From the NCBI GenBank assembly GCA_029936935.1, contig JAPYRQ010000003.1:1-62327 (forward strand): DNA of 62,327 bases. Reading direction: 5' to 3'. This document shows positions 586-41,605 of this stretch, in pieces. How positions within the stretch are numbered: position 1 is the stretch's first letter; every line of letters starts with the position of its first letter. This DNA is from Dehalococcoidia bacterium. Lineage in GTDB: Bacteria > Chloroflexota > Dehalococcoidia > Lucifugimonadales > UBA1127. Under the pieces are notes generated by a model. It saw only the letters and a program-made list of their open reading frames with translations. It was not told the DNA's origin and made no database searches. Made by a program: the position numbers and the translations under genes.

Positions 586-759
586 CGCACTCTCCTGAAA
601 CAGAATGGATTAGGGGGTTGGGATTGGCCTGCCACAGTATAGGGTCAGCGGCACAGTGTCGCAATCAGGAAGCTAGCTGCCTCGCGTAGCTGGGTATGCT
701 ATAGTGGTTTCCAGCCCGTTTTTACCTTGTGGTTACGTGGCTATGGGGAGGATAGTACC

Positions 760-2040
760 TTGCTTACACCAGAGGAAAACAAGCTTGTAACAGAGATTGG
801 TCCAGACACGCCCATGGGTGATCTCTTCCGTAGATTCTGGGTCCCTGTATTCCATGCCCGAGAGCTAGTTGATCCCGATGGTGCACCTGCTCGTACCAGG
901 TTACTGGGTGAGCACATTGTGGGGTTTCGAGACACCAGTGGGCGGCTTGGCATCCTTGAAGCGGCATGTCCGCATCGCGGCGTCGACCTCTCCTACGGCG
1001 TCAACGAGGAAAACGGCCTTCGCTGCGGCCGATGTGGCTGGAAGTTTGACGTAGAGGGCAACATCCTAGATATGCCCTACGAGCCTGATGCTGAAAGCCT
1101 GATGAAGACCATTAAGGCTGTGACATACGGCGTACAGGAGTGGGGCGGCCTCATCTGGGCTTATATGGGTCCGAAAGAGGAGTCCCCGGAACGTCCCGAG
1201 TTTGAGTGGGGTCAACTGCCGGAAGACCATCGATACATCTCCAAGTTCGTCCAGGAGTGCAACTACCTCCAGGGCCTTGAGGGTGGCATAGACAGTTCAC
1301 GCATCTCCTTCTTGTACGACATGCTCTTCGGTGACCCGCCGACGGTTGAGACTACTGCCGACCACCTGGTGCAGGGGATAGAAGGGACTCGTAAAAAAGA
1401 GAAATCCCAGTCCGTGTCAATCAAGACCACTGACTATGGCCTGATGGTCGCCGCTTCTATCGATGAAGGTCAGGAGACTAACGACTGGCAGGTCAACCAG
1501 TGGATGATGCCTTTCTACACCACTCCAAAGCCAGAAGGCGACGGATTGCTGGGCTGTCTGGCGTGGGTTCCCGTAGACGACAAGAACACGATGGTCTATG
1601 TCATTACCTACCACCCGAACAGGCCTATGACTGAAGAAGAGCTTGAGACCCGCAAGGCCGGAGGCGGTAACCACCCTGAACTCAATGAAGGCACATACAA
1701 GCGCAAACGCAACAAGGAAAACGGCTACATGATTGAGCGGAAAACCAGTGGGGCAAACCCCCTGGCCACAATCTCCAACGAGTTTGAACTGGCGTTGGTG
1801 CTAGAAGAGAGCATGGGCGCTATTGTCGATCGAACCAAAGAGCAGCTTGACCCCAACGACATTGCAATCATGGAAACGCGCAGGATACTGATGAAGTCCG
1901 CCATCGATCTGAGAGAGGGCACCGAGCCCGCTGCTGCCCACAACGGCGCTGCATACAACGTACGAGCGTCATCGCCTGTGTTGAAGCGGGATGCGTCCAT
2001 TGATCAGGTCGAGGACAAGCCCATTCCTGAACGCGAATAG
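760..2040 (+). CDS. Rieske oxygenase-family protein with degenerate metal sites (putative pseudoenzyme)
   Basis: Full-length similarity to the paralogs at 25153, 26541 and 27884. Probable TTG start at 760 (MLTPEENKLVTEIG, matching paralog N-termini) preceded by GGGGAGGA. Track ORF is 727-2040. Confidence 0.85.
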   Translation: MLTPEENKLVTEIGPDTPMGDLFRRFWVPVFHARELVDPDGAPARTRLLGEHIVGFRDTSGRLGILEAACPHRGVDLSYGVNEENGLRCGRCGWKFDVEGNILDMPYEPDAESLMKTIKAVTYGVQEWGGLIWAYMGPKEESPERPEFEWGQLPEDHRYISKFVQECNYLQGLEGGIDSSRISFLYDMLFGDPPTVETTADHLVQGIEGTRKKEKSQSVSIKTTDYGLMVAASIDEGQETNDWQVNQWMMPFYTTPKPEGDGLLGCLAWVPVDDKNTMVYVITYHPNRPMTEEELETRKAGGGNHPELNEGTYKRKRNKENGYMIERKTSGANPLATISNEFELALVLEESMGAIVDRTKEQLDPNDIAIMETRRILMKSAIDLREGTEPAAAHNGAAYNVRASSPVLKRDASIDQVEDKPIPERE

Positions 2041-2133: not shown

Positions 2134-3471
2134 ATGACCTCGGACAACAGCGTGCGGCCCAATACGCCCCACTTCTTCTACGGCTGGGTAGTCGTTGCCA
2201 CAGCATTCTTGGTCAACGTGGTTGCTGCTCCGATGAACGCTGTGGTTGTAGCCTTCTTCGTTGGCCCCTTAAGCGAGGATCTGGGTGTAAGCCGTAGTGC
2301 CATTGCGTGGGCTTTGACCTTCCGCATCGCCGTTGCAGGACTTACCGGCCCGTTCATGGGACCGCTCATAGACAAGCATGGCTCCCGGTGGTTGGGCGCC
2401 ATTGCCGGTGTGTATACGGGAGCCACTCTCATCGGCCTCTATTTTGTGGATAGTATCTGGATCCTTTACTTGATGTTCGGCCTTTCCGGACTTATGGGGT
2501 TCGGCGCCCCCGGCGGCAGCCTGCTCATCACAGTCCCTGTTGCCAAGTGGTTCGTCATTCGTAGAGGCCGCGCTATGGCGATTGCAACTGCTGGTGCGCC
2601 TTTGGGGACAGTGGCCGGGATTTTCATAGCCCAAGCCTTAATCCACAGCATCGGTTGGCGTGGAGCCTGGGTGGTGTTTGGCCTTGGCTTGTGGGCGGTC
2701 ATGGTGCCTTTATTTGCCGTCTTCATGCGAAGGACACCGGAAGACCTGGGCCTGAAGCCGGATGGAGCTGTTGAAGAGCCCTCCAGCGATAACGTATCGG
2801 TTGGAGGCCATGCGACTGTTTCTCAAGAGGTGGATTGGCCTCTGCGGACGGTATTGCGAACCCGGGTCATGTGGATGCTGGTAGTGGCCTTTGGAATCAA
2901 CCAGTTCGTGGGATCGGGCACGTTGCTGCACAGGGTTGGGTCATTTGAGGCTGACGGCCTGTCAGACGGCGTGATAAGTGTGGGTATCGCTGTTGAGCCC
3001 TTCACATTCCTTATTATGGCCCTGGTGTTCGGTATGGTCATTGAACGGGCTGTACCCCGGTTTATCGGTGCCCTGGGCCTCGCCTTCATGTCAATATCCA
3101 TCCTGCCCATGCTGTTCTTTGTGGATGGTCAGAACTACTTCATCTTCATCCATAGCATCATGTGGGGCATGGGAGCTGGGGCTGGCATGAACTTCATGAA
3201 TGTCGTTTGGCCCAGCTACTTCGGTCGGAAACACCTGGGGTCGATTCGGGGATTCATCCTGCCGATTACCATTCTGGCGGGGGGCCTTGGTGCGCCGATG
3301 TATGGCTACATCATCGATCACTGGGGCGGGTATTCCATGGCCTGGTCGATTACGCTTATTTCGATGAGTGTTTCTGGAACCCTCTACCTTTTTGCCAGTC
3401 CACCAAAACCCAAAGAGAGCGCAGCCCAGGAAGCAAGCGGTGAATCCGGGCAATCTACCCTTCTGGAGTAA
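2134..3471 (+). CDS. MFS transporter (monocarboxylate/oxalate-formate antiporter-like)
   Basis: 445 aa, about 12 hydrophobic segments, MFS-type motif GPLIDKHGSRW. Confidence 0.85.
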   Translation: MTSDNSVRPNTPHFFYGWVVVATAFLVNVVAAPMNAVVVAFFVGPLSEDLGVSRSAIAWALTFRIAVAGLTGPFMGPLIDKHGSRWLGAIAGVYTGATLIGLYFVDSIWILYLMFGLSGLMGFGAPGGSLLITVPVAKWFVIRRGRAMAIATAGAPLGTVAGIFIAQALIHSIGWRGAWVVFGLGLWAVMVPLFAVFMRRTPEDLGLKPDGAVEEPSSDNVSVGGHATVSQEVDWPLRTVLRTRVMWMLVVAFGINQFVGSGTLLHRVGSFEADGLSDGVISVGIAVEPFTFLIMALVFGMVIERAVPRFIGALGLAFMSISILPMLFFVDGQNYFIFIHSIMWGMGAGAGMNFMNVVWPSYFGRKHLGSIRGFILPITILAGGLGAPMYGYIIDHWGGYSMAWSITLISMSVSGTLYLFASPPKPKESAAQEASGESGQSTLLE

Positions 3472-25152: not shown

Positions 25153-26466
25153 ATGCTGACACAAACTGACAATGAATTACTAACCAAGACAGGACCCGGA
25201 ACTCCCATGGGGGAAGTGTTCCGGCGGTTTTGGCAGCCCGCACTCCTATCATCGGAGTTGCCCGCGCCTGACTGCGATCCCATTCGCCTTCGATTGCTTG
25301 GCGAGAACCTTGTGGCCTATCGCGACACCAACGGAGACGTTGGCGTGATGGACTTCTACTGCCCGCATCGCCGCGCGGGTATGTTCTTCGGTCGAAACGA
25401 AGAGTGCGGACTTCGCTGCGTATACCACGGCTGGAAGTTCGACAAGGACGGCAACTGCACGGACATGCCGTCAGAGCCGGCAGAGAGCAATTTCAAGGAC
25501 AAGGTGAAAATCACGGCGTATCCGGCCGAAGAGGCTGGCGACGTCGTCTGGATTTACATGGGGCCTGCTGAGAGCAAGCCTGCTTTGCCCGATTTTGAAT
25601 GGACCAAGGTGCCTTCTGAGAACCGTGTGGTGACTCGCTGGATTCAGCAGTCCAACTGCATGCAGGCTGCGGAAGGCGAGATCGACACGTCTCACGTGTC
25701 CTTCAACCACCGTTGGTTCAACATGAAGAACGCACCGGATTCCGTTAAGTCCCTCCCACGTCGTGAGAACAAAGACGGTAAGCAACTGAACCTCATGGAC
25801 GGCGCGCCACACCTGACCGTGAATGAGACCAACTACGGTTTCACCTATGGCTCACGTCGCGCAGTTGAGGATGAGGGGTACTACTGGCGCATAACCCAGT
25901 TCCTTCTGCCCATGTACAGCCTGATTCCCAGCCCTGACTGGCCCCGTGGCGGCCGAGGTTGGGTGCCGATTGATGATGAGAATATCTCCGTCATTCAGTA
26001 CTCCTACAATGCCGAACGACCTTTCACCAAGCTAGAGCGTGAGCACAGGAGATCCAGCCCCGAAGGACTGAAGTATGGCAAGTTCACCCTTGATGACGGC
26101 TACATCATTGACACCTTCATTCCGGCCCGACTGCCGGAGAACGACTACCTCATTGACCGCGAAATGCAGCGTAATGACAACTACACAGGCATCGCTAGCG
26201 GACGCGAGCAGGATATGGCTATGACGGATACCATGGGCGCCGTCGCCGACCGCACCAAGGAGCACCTTGGCACAAGCGACACCGCGATCATCGCAGCCCG
26301 CAGAATTCTTCTTAAGCTGGCTCGAGACCTCCAGGAAGGCACGGAGCCATACGCACCACAGCACCCGGAAGTCTTTGCGGTGCGCGCCATCGACGTAGTC
26401 GACCATGAGGGCGACTTCGACAAGCTCATGGTAGAGCACTCAGCACTCTCGAAGACTACGTTTTAG
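25153..26466 (+). CDS. Rieske (2Fe-2S) aromatic ring-hydroxylating oxygenase alpha subunit
   Basis: CPHRRAGMFFGRNEECGLRCVYHGWKFD Rieske motif; EGEIDTSHVSFNH (HX4H) and REQDMAMTDTMG (Asp ligand). Confidence 0.95.
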   Translation: MLTQTDNELLTKTGPGTPMGEVFRRFWQPALLSSELPAPDCDPIRLRLLGENLVAYRDTNGDVGVMDFYCPHRRAGMFFGRNEECGLRCVYHGWKFDKDGNCTDMPSEPAESNFKDKVKITAYPAEEAGDVVWIYMGPAESKPALPDFEWTKVPSENRVVTRWIQQSNCMQAAEGEIDTSHVSFNHRWFNMKNAPDSVKSLPRRENKDGKQLNLMDGAPHLTVNETNYGFTYGSRRAVEDEGYYWRITQFLLPMYSLIPSPDWPRGGRGWVPIDDENISVIQYSYNAERPFTKLEREHRRSSPEGLKYGKFTLDDGYIIDTFIPARLPENDYLIDREMQRNDNYTGIASGREQDMAMTDTMGAVADRTKEHLGTSDTAIIAARRILLKLARDLQEGTEPYAPQHPEVFAVRAIDVVDHEGDFDKLMVEHSALSKTTF

Positions 26467-26540: not shown

Positions 26541-27827
26541 ATGCTGACACAAGCAGACAACGAGATAGTCACGCGAACCGGTCCCGGCACGCCCATGGGT
26601 GAGCTGTTCCGGCGGTTCTGGCAACCAGTGTTGCTATCGTCAGACCTGCCTGATAACGATGGTGACCCACAGCGAATAAAGGTGTTGGGTGAGAACCTTG
26701 TCGCCTATCGCGACACCAACGGCGACGTTGGCGTGATGAACTTCTACTGCCCGCATCGCCGCGCGGGTATGTTCTTCGGTCGAAACGAAGAGTGCGGACT
26801 CCGCTGTGTGTACCACGGCTGGAAGTTTGATAAGGACGGCAACTGCACGGATATGCCGTCAGAGCCCGCCGAGAGCAACTTCAAGGGCAAGGTGAAAATC
26901 ACCGCATATCCAGCCAAAGAGGCTGGCACGGTGGTCTGGATCTACATGGGGCCCAAGGAGCTTCAGCCGGAGTTACCGCAGTTTGAGTGGTGCACGGTTC
27001 CCGAGGGTCACGTGGTAGTGACTCGCTGGCTCCAGCAGTCCAACTACCTTCAGGCCATGGAAGGCGAGATTGATACGTCCCACGTCTCCTTCAACCATCG
27101 CTGGTTTGACCTGGACCCCGCACCTGCCACCATTGCCATTCTCAACAGGATGGCAGGGGACGGTTCCCCTCGCCTCACGGTGCGGGAGAACGATTCAGGC
27201 TTCATCTACGGTTCACGCCGGGACTATGACAACCAGTACTACTGGCGCTGCACCCAGTTGATGGTGCCCATGTACAGCCTTATCCCTGGCAACCAGTGGC
27301 CCCGTGGCGGACGCGGGTGGGTTCCTGTGGACGACGAGACCAACATGGTCTTCCAGTACGCCTCTAACCCGGACCGACCTCTCACAGAGGAAGAGATACA
27401 CCTGCGCAAGACCCAGAGCCCGCAGAATCTTCACAAGGTGAAGCATACGTTGTCTGACGGCTACGTCATCGATACCTGGATCCCTGAACGGACACCGCAG
27501 AACGACTACAACATCGATCGCGAGATGCAGCGCACGACGAACTACGTTGGCATCCCAAGCACTCGTGAACAGGACATGGCTATGACGGACAGCATGGGCG
27601 CCATTGCCGACCGCACCAAGGAGCACCTGGGCACCAGTGATACGGCCATCATTGCCGGCCGTCAGTTGTTGCTCAAGCTGGCTCGTGACCTTCAAGAAGG
27701 CCAGGAGCCTTACGCGGCACAGCACCCGGAGGTCTTTGCCGTCAGAGCCATCAACATTGTGGACCCGGAGCCTGACTTCGATAACCTTCTTAAGAAGCAC
27801 GGAGATATGGGCAAGGTCAACGCATAA
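26541..27827 (+). CDS. Rieske (2Fe-2S) ring-hydroxylating oxygenase alpha subunit
   Basis: Same Rieske motif; EGEIDTSHVSFNHRWF; REQDMAMTDSMG. Confidence 0.95.
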   Translation: MLTQADNEIVTRTGPGTPMGELFRRFWQPVLLSSDLPDNDGDPQRIKVLGENLVAYRDTNGDVGVMNFYCPHRRAGMFFGRNEECGLRCVYHGWKFDKDGNCTDMPSEPAESNFKGKVKITAYPAKEAGTVVWIYMGPKELQPELPQFEWCTVPEGHVVVTRWLQQSNYLQAMEGEIDTSHVSFNHRWFDLDPAPATIAILNRMAGDGSPRLTVRENDSGFIYGSRRDYDNQYYWRCTQLMVPMYSLIPGNQWPRGGRGWVPVDDETNMVFQYASNPDRPLTEEEIHLRKTQSPQNLHKVKHTLSDGYVIDTWIPERTPQNDYNIDREMQRTTNYVGIPSTREQDMAMTDSMGAIADRTKEHLGTSDTAIIAGRQLLLKLARDLQEGQEPYAAQHPEVFAVRAINIVDPEPDFDNLLKKHGDMGKVNA

Positions 27828-27883: not shown

Positions 27884-29191
27884 ATGCTGACACCAGAAGA
27901 GAATGATCTGATTTGTAGGACTGATAAGGGCACCCCCATGGGAGAGGTCATGCGCCGATACTGGCAGCCTTTCCTGATCTCTGATGAGCTTCCAGATCCG
28001 GACTGTGACGCCATACGTGTTCGGTTGTTGGGCGAGCAGCTTGTCGCGTTCCGTGACACCAATGGGGTCGTAGGCCTCGTCGCTGACGCTTGCCCACATC
28101 GGGGCGCGTCAATGTTCTTCGGCATCAACCAGGAATGTGGCCTGATGTGTATCTACCACGGATGGAAGTTTGATGTGAACGGTGAATGCACAGACATGCC
28201 TTCAGACCTGCCCGGAAGCGGTTTCAAGGACAAGGTAAGAATTGAGGCCTATCCCTGCATTGAGTCGGCAGGCGTCATCTGGACCTACATGGGGCCCAAA
28301 GAGAAGGAGCCCCCGCACCCCAACTTCATCTTCAACAACCTCCCCCAAGAGAACGTGCATGCATTCCGTGTCCCCATCTACTGCAACTGGTTGCAGAGCA
28401 TGGAAGGGAACATTGACTCCACCCACCTGGGCACGCTCCACGTGGACTACCAGGATATGCACCCGGTGGACCTGGAGTATGACAAGCCGGACACTTACCC
28501 TTCCGGGGCATTTGTCCGATACAACCTAGCCAAGTACCGTTACGCCCGCATCGATGTGCAGGATACCTCCTATGGGTATCGACTCATCGCGTCACGGCCA
28601 ACGGACAACGGCAACCAGCACGTCCGCACTAACTGCCACGTGCTGCCCTACAGCACCTTCATTGCATCCCCGGGCAAGGGTGGCTCCGTTTTGATTCACC
28701 CGCCCACGGACGATGAGAACTGCTACCGCATCGGCATCCAGTTCCGGACGGACAGGCCAATCACCGGACAGGAGCGCCGAACCATCACCATGGCTGGGAC
28801 ATACATGGAGAGTGATGGCAAGACTCGCAAGAACCGTGAAGAGAATGACTTCAACGTGGACCGCTGGGCACAGAAGAACACCATCCTGTCCGGCATCTGG
28901 CCTTTCGCAGACCAGGACTACGCCATCATTGAGACGATGGGCAAGATCTTTGACCGGACCAAAGAGCACCTCTATCAGGGTGACCAGGCCATCATTAGGA
29001 ACAGGCAACAACTGTTGAAGATGGCCATGGACATCCAGGAGGGCATAGACCCGCCAGGAACGGGGAACAACAACGACATTCCTCACCACCTGATCCACTC
29101 CGTGGAGAAGATCATTGGGCCTGACGACGATCCGTGGTTCTTGGAAGCGGACGCAGGAGAAACGACTGAAAAGGGTCAACGTACCCGCTAG
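27884..29191 (+). CDS. Rieske (2Fe-2S) ring-hydroxylating oxygenase alpha subunit
   Basis: CPHRGASMFFGINQECGLMCIYHGWKFD; EGNIDSTHLGTLH; ADQDYAIIETMG. Confidence 0.95.
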   Translation: MLTPEENDLICRTDKGTPMGEVMRRYWQPFLISDELPDPDCDAIRVRLLGEQLVAFRDTNGVVGLVADACPHRGASMFFGINQECGLMCIYHGWKFDVNGECTDMPSDLPGSGFKDKVRIEAYPCIESAGVIWTYMGPKEKEPPHPNFIFNNLPQENVHAFRVPIYCNWLQSMEGNIDSTHLGTLHVDYQDMHPVDLEYDKPDTYPSGAFVRYNLAKYRYARIDVQDTSYGYRLIASRPTDNGNQHVRTNCHVLPYSTFIASPGKGGSVLIHPPTDDENCYRIGIQFRTDRPITGQERRTITMAGTYMESDGKTRKNREENDFNVDRWAQKNTILSGIWPFADQDYAIIETMGKIFDRTKEHLYQGDQAIIRNRQQLLKMAMDIQEGIDPPGTGNNNDIPHHLIHSVEKIIGPDDDPWFLEADAGETTEKGQRTR

Positions 29192-37786: not shown

Positions 37787-37953
37787 TGGTTGACACAGGT
37801 ACGGCCACATAGGTACCATGCCACCTAACGAATTCCCTCGCAGGCGCGTATAGCCCTTACTAATCAATTCCTGTGACTGATGATGGACATTCGTAAGTGG
37901 AATAAGAGCCATGCTCCATTTCCGGAAACTATTTGAATCAAGGGAGGATGCCA

Positions 37954-38823
37954 TTGCGCCCAATTGAGTATGTAGCGGCCAAGACCGTACAAGAAGCCGT
38001 AACGTCCCTGGCGGAGAAAGGTGATGCAGCGCGGCCCCTCGCGGGTGGTACTGACATCATCGTTCAACTGCGAGGCGGCAGACGGCAGCTAGACCGGCTG
38101 GTTGATATGAAGGCCATCCCAGAGCTGAATGAGCTCACATACAACGCTAGTTCAGGATTGCGCATCGGAGCGGCAGTCCCTTGCTACCGCGTGTACGGCA
38201 ATGCCGAAGTCGCCGGTGCCTACCCCGGCCTTATCGATGCTGCATCACTGGTTGGTGGCATCCAGATTCAAGGTCGAGGCTCCATTGGCGGAAACCTCTG
38301 CAACGCGGCACCCAGCGGTGACACCATCCCGGCCCTCATCGCCCACAGCGCCGTTGCTGAGATCACTGGTCCTGGTGGCAGTCGCGAAGTGCCCGTTGAA
38401 GACTTCTGTACTGCACCGGGTCGCACGGTGATTCAATCTGGCGAAATCCTGGTTGCGATTCGCATCCCTGCGCCTGCGGCCCATTTTGGGGCATGCTACA
38501 TGCGCTTCATCCCCCGGAATGAAATGGACATCGCCGTTGTTGGCGTCGGGGCCTCCGTGGTCATGGACGGCAACAAGGTCACTGCCTGCCGGATAGCCTT
38601 GGCCTCTGTAGCACCTACACCGGTGTATGCAGCAGCAGCAGGCGCCGTCCTCGCCGGCAAAGAGGCAACGGAAGAGAACATCAACGCGGTAGCTGAAGTA
38701 GCACAGTCCGCAGCCACCCCAATCTCAGATATGCGCGGCACGGCAGAGTACCGCACGCACCTCATTGGTGTGCTGACTCGCCGAGCATTGCAGAGCGCTA
38801 TCCAGCGCGCGAAGGGAGCATAA
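37954..38823 (+). CDS. xanthine dehydrogenase/CO dehydrogenase-family FAD-binding subunit
   Basis: RPLAGGTDIIVQLRGG...IQIQGRGSIGGNLCNAAPSGDT. Start is ambiguous: TTG 37954 has better RBS spacing than ATG 37948. Confidence 0.93.
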   Translation: MRPIEYVAAKTVQEAVTSLAEKGDAARPLAGGTDIIVQLRGGRRQLDRLVDMKAIPELNELTYNASSGLRIGAAVPCYRVYGNAEVAGAYPGLIDAASLVGGIQIQGRGSIGGNLCNAAPSGDTIPALIAHSAVAEITGPGGSREVPVEDFCTAPGRTVIQSGEILVAIRIPAPAAHFGACYMRFIPRNEMDIAVVGVGASVVMDGNKVTACRIALASVAPTPVYAAAAGAVLAGKEATEENINAVAEVAQSAATPISDMRGTAEYRTHLIGVLTRRALQSAIQRAKGA

Positions 38824-38825
38824 CC

Positions 38826-39311
38826 ATGGCATCAGAGAAGACCCACGTACGAACGACACTTAACGGTGAGGCCACAGAGTATCTCTGTGAGACCAACCAG
38901 AGCTTGTTGGAAGTCCTGCGGGACGTCCTGCTCCTGACCGGCACCAAAGAGGGCTGCAACGATGGCAACTGCGGCGCGTGTACCGTCAACATGGACGGGC
39001 GCATCGTAGATTCTTGTCTGGTCCTTGGCGTAGAGGCGGAAGGCGCTGAAATCCTGACAATCGAGGGTGTAGCCACTCCCGAGGGTCTGCACCCCATCCA
39101 GCAGGCGTTCCTGGAGAACGCTGCCCTACAGTGCGGTATCTGCACGCCGGGATTTATCATTGCTTCTAAAGCTCTTCTTGAGAAAGAGCCTAACCCGTCC
39201 GAGGCGAGGATTCGCCACTGGCTGGCCGGAAACCTCTGCCGATGCACGGGCTATGACAAGATCGTCAAGGCGGTTGTGGCTGCGGCCAACACCATAGGGG
39301 GGAAGAAGTAA
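38826..39311 (+). CDS. xanthine/CO dehydrogenase-family (2Fe-2S) subunit
   Basis: GCNDGNCGACTVNMDG...ALQCGICTPGFIIASKALL...NLCRCTGYDKIVKAV. Confidence 0.96.
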   Translation: MASEKTHVRTTLNGEATEYLCETNQSLLEVLRDVLLLTGTKEGCNDGNCGACTVNMDGRIVDSCLVLGVEAEGAEILTIEGVATPEGLHPIQQAFLENAALQCGICTPGFIIASKALLEKEPNPSEARIRHWLAGNLCRCTGYDKIVKAVVAAANTIGGKK

Positions 39312-41605
39312 TGACGACGTCAGATAAGAAGAAGTATAAGGTCATTGGCACCACACCCATTCGCCACGATGGTGCGGACAAGGTAACTGGCAGAGCCGTC
39401 TACGGAATTGACTTTCACACGACAGGCATGCTGTGGGGCAAGATTCTTCGAAGCCCCCACGCCCACGCCAAGATCAAAAGCATCGATGCCACCAAAGCGC
39501 TTGCGCTCCCCGGCGTCCATGCGGTGGTTACAGGCAAGGACATGGCCGTTGCTCGGGACATAGAGGTTGAGGCAGGCGAGACTTCCCTGAACTACATGCA
39601 TCTCAGCGACAACGTGATGGCCAGGGACAAGGCACTTTATAAGGGCCACGCCGTTGCTGCAGTAGCTGCCGATACCCAACACATCGCTGAAGAGGCTCTG
39701 GGCCTCATCGAAGTGGACTATGAAGTACTGACTCCGGTGTTGAACGGCCGGGAGGGCATGAAGTCGGATGCGCCGCTGATCCACCCTGACCAAACCACCA
39801 AGATTATGGCATTTCGCTTTGACCCCGGCACAGACTCCGGCGAGAAGAGCAACATTGCCGGTAAGTCGCAGCTCAAGCTCGGCGACATCGATGCCGGGTT
39901 CAAGGAAGCCGATTTCATCGTCGAACGTGAGTACACCACCTCCTGGGTCCACCAGGGCTATATTGAAGCTCAGAATGCTACAGCTCACTGGAACAACGAC
40001 GACAACATCACGGTCTGGAACAGCAGCCAGGGTACTTTCAACCAACGCCAGTTGATGGCTGAGATTTTGAAGCACCCTGTCTCTCAGATAAAAATGGTCC
40101 CCATGGAGATCGGCGGCGGGTTTGGCGGCAAGATACCGGTGTATCTGGAAATTCCTGCTGCCATGCTTTCTAAGAAGACAGGCCACCCGGTCAAGATGAC
40201 GATGACTCGCACAGAGGTTTTTGAAGGCACTGGACCGGCTTCTGCAGCGCAAATGAAGGCCAAGGTTGGCGCAACAAAGGACGGTCGCATCACTGCCGCT
40301 TACGCAGAGTTGGTTTTTGAAGCAGGTGCATTCCCAGGTTCAGCCGTGGGCGCAGGTGCCCAGGGCATGTTCACCACGTACAACATTGAAAACGTGTTGA
40401 TCGATGGCTACGACGTCGTCGTCAACAAACCGAAGTCGGCGGCCTATCGCTCGCCCGGCACACCCCAGGCCTGCTTCCCTGCAGAAGCCGTCATCGACGA
40501 ACTGGCAGAACTGGTGGGCATGGATCCCCTCGATTTCCGTATGAAGAATGCGGCAAAAGAGGGCGATCGACGCGCAGACGGCGTCCAGCACCCTGAGATG
40601 GGCAACCTGGAGTGCATGGAAGCGCTGAAGGCCAGTGATCACTACAAGTCTGACCTTGGTGGCCCCAACCGTGGCCGTGGCGTCGCTTCTGGCTACTGGG
40701 GCAACGCGGGCATGCCTGCAAGCTGCTCCATTGCCATCAACGCCGACGGCACAGTGAGCCTCGCCGAGGGTTCACCGGACATCGGTGGCTCACGGACTTC
40801 CATCGCAATGATGTGTGCCGAGGCTTTCGGCATCGCCGCAGAGGACGTCCACCCAAGCATCAAGGACACTGACTCCATCGGCTACCAGGGCCTCACCGCC
40901 GGTAGCAGCACCACCCTGCGTAACGGCTGGGCGGTCTTTGAAGTCACCAACCAGGCCATCGAACTAATAAAGGCTCGGGCTGCCCGACTGTGGGAGACGG
41001 AACCCGAGAACGTGGACTTTGCCGATGGCGTCTTCTTCTCCAAGGCGGAGAAGGAACTGAAACTGACATTCAAGGAGATGACCGGCAAGTTGATGGAGAC
41101 CGGTGGTCCCATCTCTGTGGCCGCATCGGTAGCACCCAGAGGCGCAGGCCCCTCCTTTACGACACACATGGTCGACGTGGAAGTTGACCCAGAGACAGGC
41201 AAGGTAGAAATCCTCCGTTACACAGCGGCCCAGGACGTGGGCACCATGATCCACCCCGACTATGTTGAGGGTCAGGTTCAGGGCGGCGCAGTCCAGGGGA
41301 TCGGTTGGGCGTTGAATGAGGAATATTTCTTTAGCGACAAGGGTGCAATGCTGAACGCCAGCTACTTGGACTACCGCGTACCAACAATGCTTGATCTTCC
41401 TATGATTGACACCATTCTGGTGGAACACGCTAACCCGGATCATCCCTTTGGCGTCCGCGGAGTTGCTGAGATTTCTGTGGTGCCGCCGCTGGGCGCACTG
41501 GCCAACGCAATCTATGCAGCTGTGGGCGTCCGCATGCGTGACCTGCCTATGGCACCGCACAAGATTGTAAAGGCGCTTCAGGAAAAGAACGGAAAGACCA
41601 AGTAG
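39311..41605 (+). CDS. xanthine dehydrogenase-family molybdopterin-binding subunit
   Basis: GRAVYGIDFHTTGMLWGKILRSPHAHAKI; GGGFGGKIPVYLE; AAYRSPGTPQACFPAEAVIDELA (not the form-I CODH AYxCSFR loop); GVRGVAEISVVPPLGALANAI. Confidence 0.96.
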   Translation: MTTSDKKKYKVIGTTPIRHDGADKVTGRAVYGIDFHTTGMLWGKILRSPHAHAKIKSIDATKALALPGVHAVVTGKDMAVARDIEVEAGETSLNYMHLSDNVMARDKALYKGHAVAAVAADTQHIAEEALGLIEVDYEVLTPVLNGREGMKSDAPLIHPDQTTKIMAFRFDPGTDSGEKSNIAGKSQLKLGDIDAGFKEADFIVEREYTTSWVHQGYIEAQNATAHWNNDDNITVWNSSQGTFNQRQLMAEILKHPVSQIKMVPMEIGGGFGGKIPVYLEIPAAMLSKKTGHPVKMTMTRTEVFEGTGPASAAQMKAKVGATKDGRITAAYAELVFEAGAFPGSAVGAGAQGMFTTYNIENVLIDGYDVVVNKPKSAAYRSPGTPQACFPAEAVIDELAELVGMDPLDFRMKNAAKEGDRRADGVQHPEMGNLECMEALKASDHYKSDLGGPNRGRGVASGYWGNAGMPASCSIAINADGTVSLAEGSPDIGGSRTSIAMMCAEAFGIAAEDVHPSIKDTDSIGYQGLTAGSSTTLRNGWAVFEVTNQAIELIKARAARLWETEPENVDFADGVFFSKAEKELKLTFKEMTGKLMETGGPISVAASVAPRGAGPSFTTHMVDVEVDPETGKVEILRYTAAQDVGTMIHPDYVEGQVQGGAVQGIGWALNEEYFFSDKGAMLNASYLDYRVPTMLDLPMIDTILVEHANPDHPFGVRGVAEISVVPPLGALANAIYAAVGVRMRDLPMAPHKIVKALQEKNGKTK

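Follow-up and report, generated by a model that had tools for sequence, protein, structure and literature searches.

A Rieske-oxygenase-like protein conserved in marine Chloroflexota lacks the iron-site ligands and carries a cysteine at a Rieske histidine position

As seen in aligned sequences, a clade of Rieske-oxygenase-like proteins from two families of marine Chloroflexota has kept both domains of its family, while all three ligands of the mononuclear iron are gone and the second histidine of the Rieske site is a cysteine, changes that are fixed throughout the clade. The defining mark of Rieske proteins is the 2Cys:2His ligation of their cluster, and that of Rieske oxygenases an iron in a 2-His-1-carboxylate site. 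To judge from the substitution patterns, the change is one of remodelling rather than decay, and since the altered form is intact and present in one copy per genome in both families, it probably still functions, in a new role other than that of an oxygenase. A conserved non-oxygenase offshoot of phthalate-dioxygenase-type Rieske oxygenases, in which both the cluster and a ligand may have a role, would explain these features best, a reading that we hold with a confidence just short of evenly balanced.

The gene is located in a window of 62,327 nucleotides, which is the whole stretch of DNA that was analysed and corresponds to contig C97 of genome G000 (2.05 Mb, 94.6% complete):

745..751, + strand: ribosome-binding site GGGGAGG, 8 nt upstream of the TTG start (from the sequence)
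760..2040, + strand: Rieske-oxygenase-like protein without iron-site ligands, 426 aa, with M1 encoded by TTG at 760

Orthologs from genus g1, that of G000, have a Met start at the place of TTG 760. The initial annotation had described frame, motifs and coordinates correctly, except for a length of 427 residues, which includes the stop codon. Rieske (PF00355) and LigXa_C (PF19301) domains both exceed the Pfam cut-off in the 426-residue protein. The structure modelling that had been proposed yielded, with AlphaFold2 and an input of 79 of the protein's own relatives, a monomer with a confident oxygenase fold (pLDDT 90.9, pTM 0.90), whose top match in Foldseek is isophthalate dioxygenase (IPDO; 9ina, TM 0.86), with phthalate dioxygenase also among the best. 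The Rieske domain and the oxygenase catalytic domain of alpha subunits are thus both present according to Pfam, model and Foldseek, and by these measures the gene encodes a relative of the alpha subunits of phthalate/isophthalate-dioxygenase-type Rieske oxygenases.

In IPDO, the Rieske cluster is coordinated by C69, H71, C88 and H91, the bridging aspartate is D174 and the iron is bound by H177, H182 and D337 (PMC12445078). A pairwise HMMER alignment to 9ina, in which chain and paper numbering differ by a constant offset, maps these residues in the same order onto C70, H72, C89, C92, D178, R181, Y186 and A345 of the gene product. The mapping bears out what had been proposed at the outset, namely a CX2C in the second Rieske motif and the replacement of the mononuclear iron ligands by Arg, Tyr and Ala, and it supports the reading as a non-oxygenase. 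The positions are encoded as follows:

967..975, + strand: Rieske loop 1, Cys70-Pro-His72, kept (alignment, pattern)
1024..1035, + strand: Rieske loop 2, Cys89-Gly-Arg-Cys92, where CxxC replaces CxxH (alignment, pattern, IPDO mapping)
1291..1293, + strand: Asp178, equivalent to the bridging Asp D174 of IPDO, kept (alignment, IPDO mapping)
1300..1302, + strand: Arg181 in place of the first His ligand of the iron (IPDO H177), the same in all clade members (alignment, IPDO mapping)
1315..1317, + strand: Tyr186 in place of the second His ligand of the iron (IPDO H182), a residue that varies among clade members but is never His (alignment, IPDO mapping)
1792..1794, + strand: Ala345 at the iron-Asp (IPDO D337), invariant in the clade (alignment, IPDO mapping)

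In an alignment of 79 sequences (15 from the clade and 64 others), residue 92 is C in 15/15 clade members and H in 63/64 of the others, residue 181 is R in 15/15 and H in 64/64, and residue 345 is A in 15/15 and D in 63/64. Residue 186 is H in 64/64 of the others and in no clade member, where Y, F, A, K, Q, E or R are found; such free drift, which is expected once a residue no longer binds iron, implies that not every residue of the pocket is constrained. Throughout the clade, CxH...CxxC takes the place of the 2Cys:2His signature CxH...CxxH, with the ligand spacing in the Rieske fold found in the H64C variant of the ferredoxin ARF, and at the iron site R181/Y186/A345 are found instead of a 2-His-1-carboxylate set. 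Asp178, the bridging Asp typical of alpha subunits, is invariant, as is Glu343, two residues from the lost Asp position. In the second sphere of the clade, Tyr91 (100% of paralogs) has shifted to Arg/Gln and the Cys at 102 (100%) to Ile. The pattern CPHR-x15-CxxC-x-W matches once in the window and in 0/100 shuffles.

Three further genes in the window served as controls:

25153..26466, + strand: canonical Rieske oxygenase paralog (control)
26541..27827, + strand: canonical Rieske oxygenase paralog (control)
27884..29191, + strand: canonical Rieske oxygenase paralog (control)

Their second Rieske motifs read CVYH, CVYH and CIYH, matching the CX2H reported for them in the initial annotation, and their iron sites H/H/D. 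Of the 68 Rieske domains encoded by genome G000, 63 lie in frames of oxygenase size, and beside these there are only five short Rieske proteins (frames of 107-135 aa). The paralogs, which were compared as excised stretches in an aligned subset, all contain CxH/CxxH and H/H/D with one sporadic exception outside the clade (G000:C21:4427-5716, L111), where the Rieske His is replaced by Asp (CVYD) and the iron Asp by Asn (QNQ). We rejected this second altered paralog as a parallel case because its 93% ortholog in G003 (L112) is fully canonical, so that the change is either sporadic or a (sequencing) error. A plant-type-ferredoxin oxygenase reductase was considered as dedicated electron donor and dropped, since the genome contains only four Fer2 matches, among which no oxygenase reductase was recognised; one Fer2 ORF adjoins a gene for a succinate-dehydrogenase/fumarate-reductase-like flavoprotein, and one match lies in the window between xanthine/CO-dehydrogenase-like genes. 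Positions 37933-41605 of the window hold a three-gene xanthine/CO dehydrogenase-like cluster with FAD, 2Fe-2S and molybdenum subunits.

In a tree of the aligned proteins, from which the four trait columns had been dropped beforehand, the altered residues are confined to one clade of 15 rows, corresponding to a single change (SH-aLRT 100), and the homologs with shared substitutions thus form the monophyletic group that the initial annotation had proposed to look for. Scanning the genomes of the order for the same pattern at the DNA level gave matches in 24/247 (the set size varies between 247 and 250 across analyses), 18 of which are this gene, the other 6 not being Rieske-like in appearance. 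Despite tens of canonical paralogs per genome, the gene is found as a single copy in 18/247 genomes of the order, all of them either in genus g1 (5/5) or in f18, a second family of the order (13/16). Among 400 scanned Chloroflexota genomes, true matches are found only in G000, G022 and G056, and a scan of genome contigs with the single protein retrieved close relatives only. Identities are 73-89% for orthologs within genus g1 and about 46% for those of f18, and the mean column identity is 69% in the clade versus 42% in the mixed set. Among the genomes with at least 30 oxygenase candidates at first look, 17/19 have the gene, which is absent from all those with a smaller number.

The gene is flanked in genus g1 by a divergent ornithine-cyclodeaminase-like gene, accompanied by a DUF1330 gene in three genomes, and on the other side by a recF-like gene. 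The recF-like gene follows directly in G001, G002 and G004, and a transporter gene follows in G000 and G003 only:

2134..3471, + strand: MFS transporter downstream, an adjacency common only to G000 and G003

No MFS gene adjoins the gene in any orthologous f18 locus. The conserved MFS linkage that had been anticipated from the window does therefore not hold and a partnership with the transporter was rejected; being shared only with G003, the MFS gene is probably outside the conserved system. In f18, the F420 genes cofG, cofH, cofD and cofC are found at most 10 kb from the gene in about 8/10 informative loci. F420 was nevertheless rejected as general partner, since cofH is absent from all five g1 genomes. 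F420 genes together with an F420-type luciferase-like oxidoreductase are found at a distance of up to about 10 kb from the ortholog in the f18 loci L070, L072-L076, L078 and L079. In five f18 genomes, a protein of about 140 residues starts a few bases past the ortholog (L071:10245-10664, L072, L073, L074, L077), for which no Pfam or NCBIfam match was found. No neighbour is consistently common to both g1 and f18.

Electron transfer in Rieske oxygenases crosses from one subunit's cluster to the iron of its neighbour via an Asp that is hydrogen-bonded to a ligand His of both centres (PMC12445004). In carbazole dioxygenase, the bridging Asp180 touches His183, the first His ligand of the iron, and His93, which belongs to the CX2H motif (PMC5033481). 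In the gene product, exactly these two histidines on either side of the bridging Asp are replaced, by Arg181 and Cys92, so that neither end of the relay to an active-site iron is left, which would make a normal oxygenase cycle impossible and argues that the protein no longer passes electrons to its own or a neighbour's iron. In the Sulfolobus Rieske ferredoxin ARF, the mutant H64C, affecting the His of CX2H, assembles a low-potential 3Cys:1His [2Fe-2S] cluster, and cluster assembly fails in H44C, which affects the His of CXH (PMC2946596). Since the clade carries the swap that ARF tolerates, a 3Cys:1His [2Fe-2S] cluster would be expected, and by this analogy we lean towards a low-potential cluster of that kind in the CxH/CxxC site. 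The 3Cys:1His set suggested in the initial annotation is thus plausible, but a likeness to mitoNEET does not extend beyond the ligand count, as Pfam finds no CDGSH/NEET domain in the gene product.

That the altered residues stem from pseudogene decay or from faulty assembly is very improbable. Although the copy in G003 is divided between two contigs and gives way to foreign sequence at both junctions, all other complete loci are intact, the gene in G022 being merely truncated by the contig end, and the same residues recur across genomes of different assemblies. Decay or error is further contradicted by pairwise dN/dS values (NG86) of 0.04-0.30, for pairs with usable dS, and by synonymous codon changes at the invariant C70, H72, C89, C92, D178, R181, E343 and A345. 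These values are well below 1, as anticipated for purifying selection, and together with intact copies in two families they uphold the earlier view that the gene is not simply decaying. The halves of the G003 ortholog are found at L068:9490-9974 and L067:1-3357, either as an insertion/broken copy or as a chimeric assembly. Just as hard to credit is a working oxygenase with its iron ligands elsewhere, for which the proximity of the invariant Glu343 to the lost Asp could be held in favour: the IPDO alignment is consistent at all three ligand positions, and no alternative iron site is visible in the clade, where H305 is the only invariant His beyond the cluster loop, so that no conserved 2-His site is possible. 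Intact ligands elsewhere, which the initial annotation had named as evidence against its reading, do not appear in the alignment to the solved structure.

Zinc is the main rival to [2Fe-2S] at the cluster site. The CxH/CxxC motif would then hold structural zinc or mononuclear iron, and the protein would be either a binding protein without redox activity or an enzyme that needs no metal and employs Arg181, Glu343 and Asp178, a reading that we regard as unlikely. The genus motif CPRCGW, which we take to resemble a rubredoxin or zinc knuckle, counts in favour of zinc, as does the invariance of Glu343 and Arg181 in the clade. Rieske cluster loops also resemble those of rubredoxin and zinc ribbons, and the ARF triple mutant H44I/K45C/H64C binds a single iron as Fe(Cys)4 (PMC2946596). 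However, loop 1 keeps the Rieske CPH and the pattern is that of ARF H64C, which assembles [2Fe-2S]; sequence alone cannot separate Zn from Fe-S. Distinctly unlikely, in our view, is a role as heteromeric partner, in which the protein would join one or several canonical alpha paralogs in a mixed complex and modulate either their activity or their supply of electrons. Such an arrangement has precedent in the mixed alpha3alpha'3 assembly of NdmA/NdmB (PMC12445004), in NdmC, which has no Rieske cluster, the latter sitting on NdmD (NdmCDE; PMC4408171), and in the two chains of Micromonas CAO (PMC9615114), and it would agree with the retained Asp178 and the occurrence in oxygenase-rich genomes. Yet a Rieske donor subunit should retain the His touching the neighbour's bridging Asp, which is replaced here, and the dismantled relay makes this role less likely, so that the partner subunit suggested initially is conceivable but weakened. 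In addition, no paralog is consistently adjacent, and the co-occurrence is confounded by phylogeny, with the oxygenase-rich G008 and G011 lacking the gene.

Returning to the conserved non-oxygenase offshoot, the protein might assemble as its own (homo)trimer, with the old catalytic pocket binding one conserved small ligand, where Arg181, Asp178 and Glu343 would replace the iron ligands and the retained Asp178 possibly pairs with Arg181. Cluster redox state and ligand binding would then jointly convey a signal to the many oxygenases of the cell or regulate them, an arrangement that appears conceivable to us while falling short of probable. Pfam finds no fused signalling or DNA-binding domain in the protein, and a sensor would therefore need an unseen partner. 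We likewise propose, with some reservation, that a Rieske-fold protein without mononuclear iron, in which a 3Cys:1His [2Fe-2S] cluster has become fixed in nature, arose a single time within an oxygenase expansion of marine Chloroflexota and might serve that oxygenase set as a redox- or ligand-responsive non-enzyme.

Nothing relevant on a ligand-less Rieske oxygenase was found in the open-access literature. The setting of the gene, in a genome that presumably belongs to SAR202, is the same kind of paralog expansion as that of the SAR202 ring-hydroxylating dioxygenases (COG4638; PMC6946804), which are described as oxygenases, with no ligand-less member mentioned in the sections of that work on which we draw. 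Our analysis cautions against taking every one of the tens of 'ring-hydroxylating dioxygenases' reported from marine genomes of this kind for an oxygenase. A conserved lineage breaking both rules of ligation together, at the very positions linking the cluster to the iron, would constitute a natural experiment on the role of the relay. IPDO (9ina/9ioy) and phthalate dioxygenase (7fjl/7v25) from Comamonas testosteroni KF1 share with the gene product the two-domain fold (TM about 0.86 and 0.80), the Rieske loop positions, the bridging Asp and the length, whereas compared to IPDO it has Cys for His91 and Arg, Tyr and Ala for His177, His182 and Asp337. Micromonas CAO, NdmCDE and NdmA/NdmB provide precedent for subunits without one metal centre or for mixed assemblies, but such split or mixed oxygenases keep working centres across the complex, whereas in the gene product even the cluster site that is left has changed. 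MitoNEET and CDGSH proteins have the 3Cys:1His count in common and differ in motif and domain. A closer analogue is ARF H64C, with the same CxH...CxxC pattern resulting from the change of the CX2H His to Cys. Unlike this small man-made ferredoxin, the gene product is natural, fixed and oxygenase-sized, with a cluster that is predicted; if the prediction is true, nature makes use of the one His-to-Cys replacement that proved tolerable in the engineered ferredoxin.
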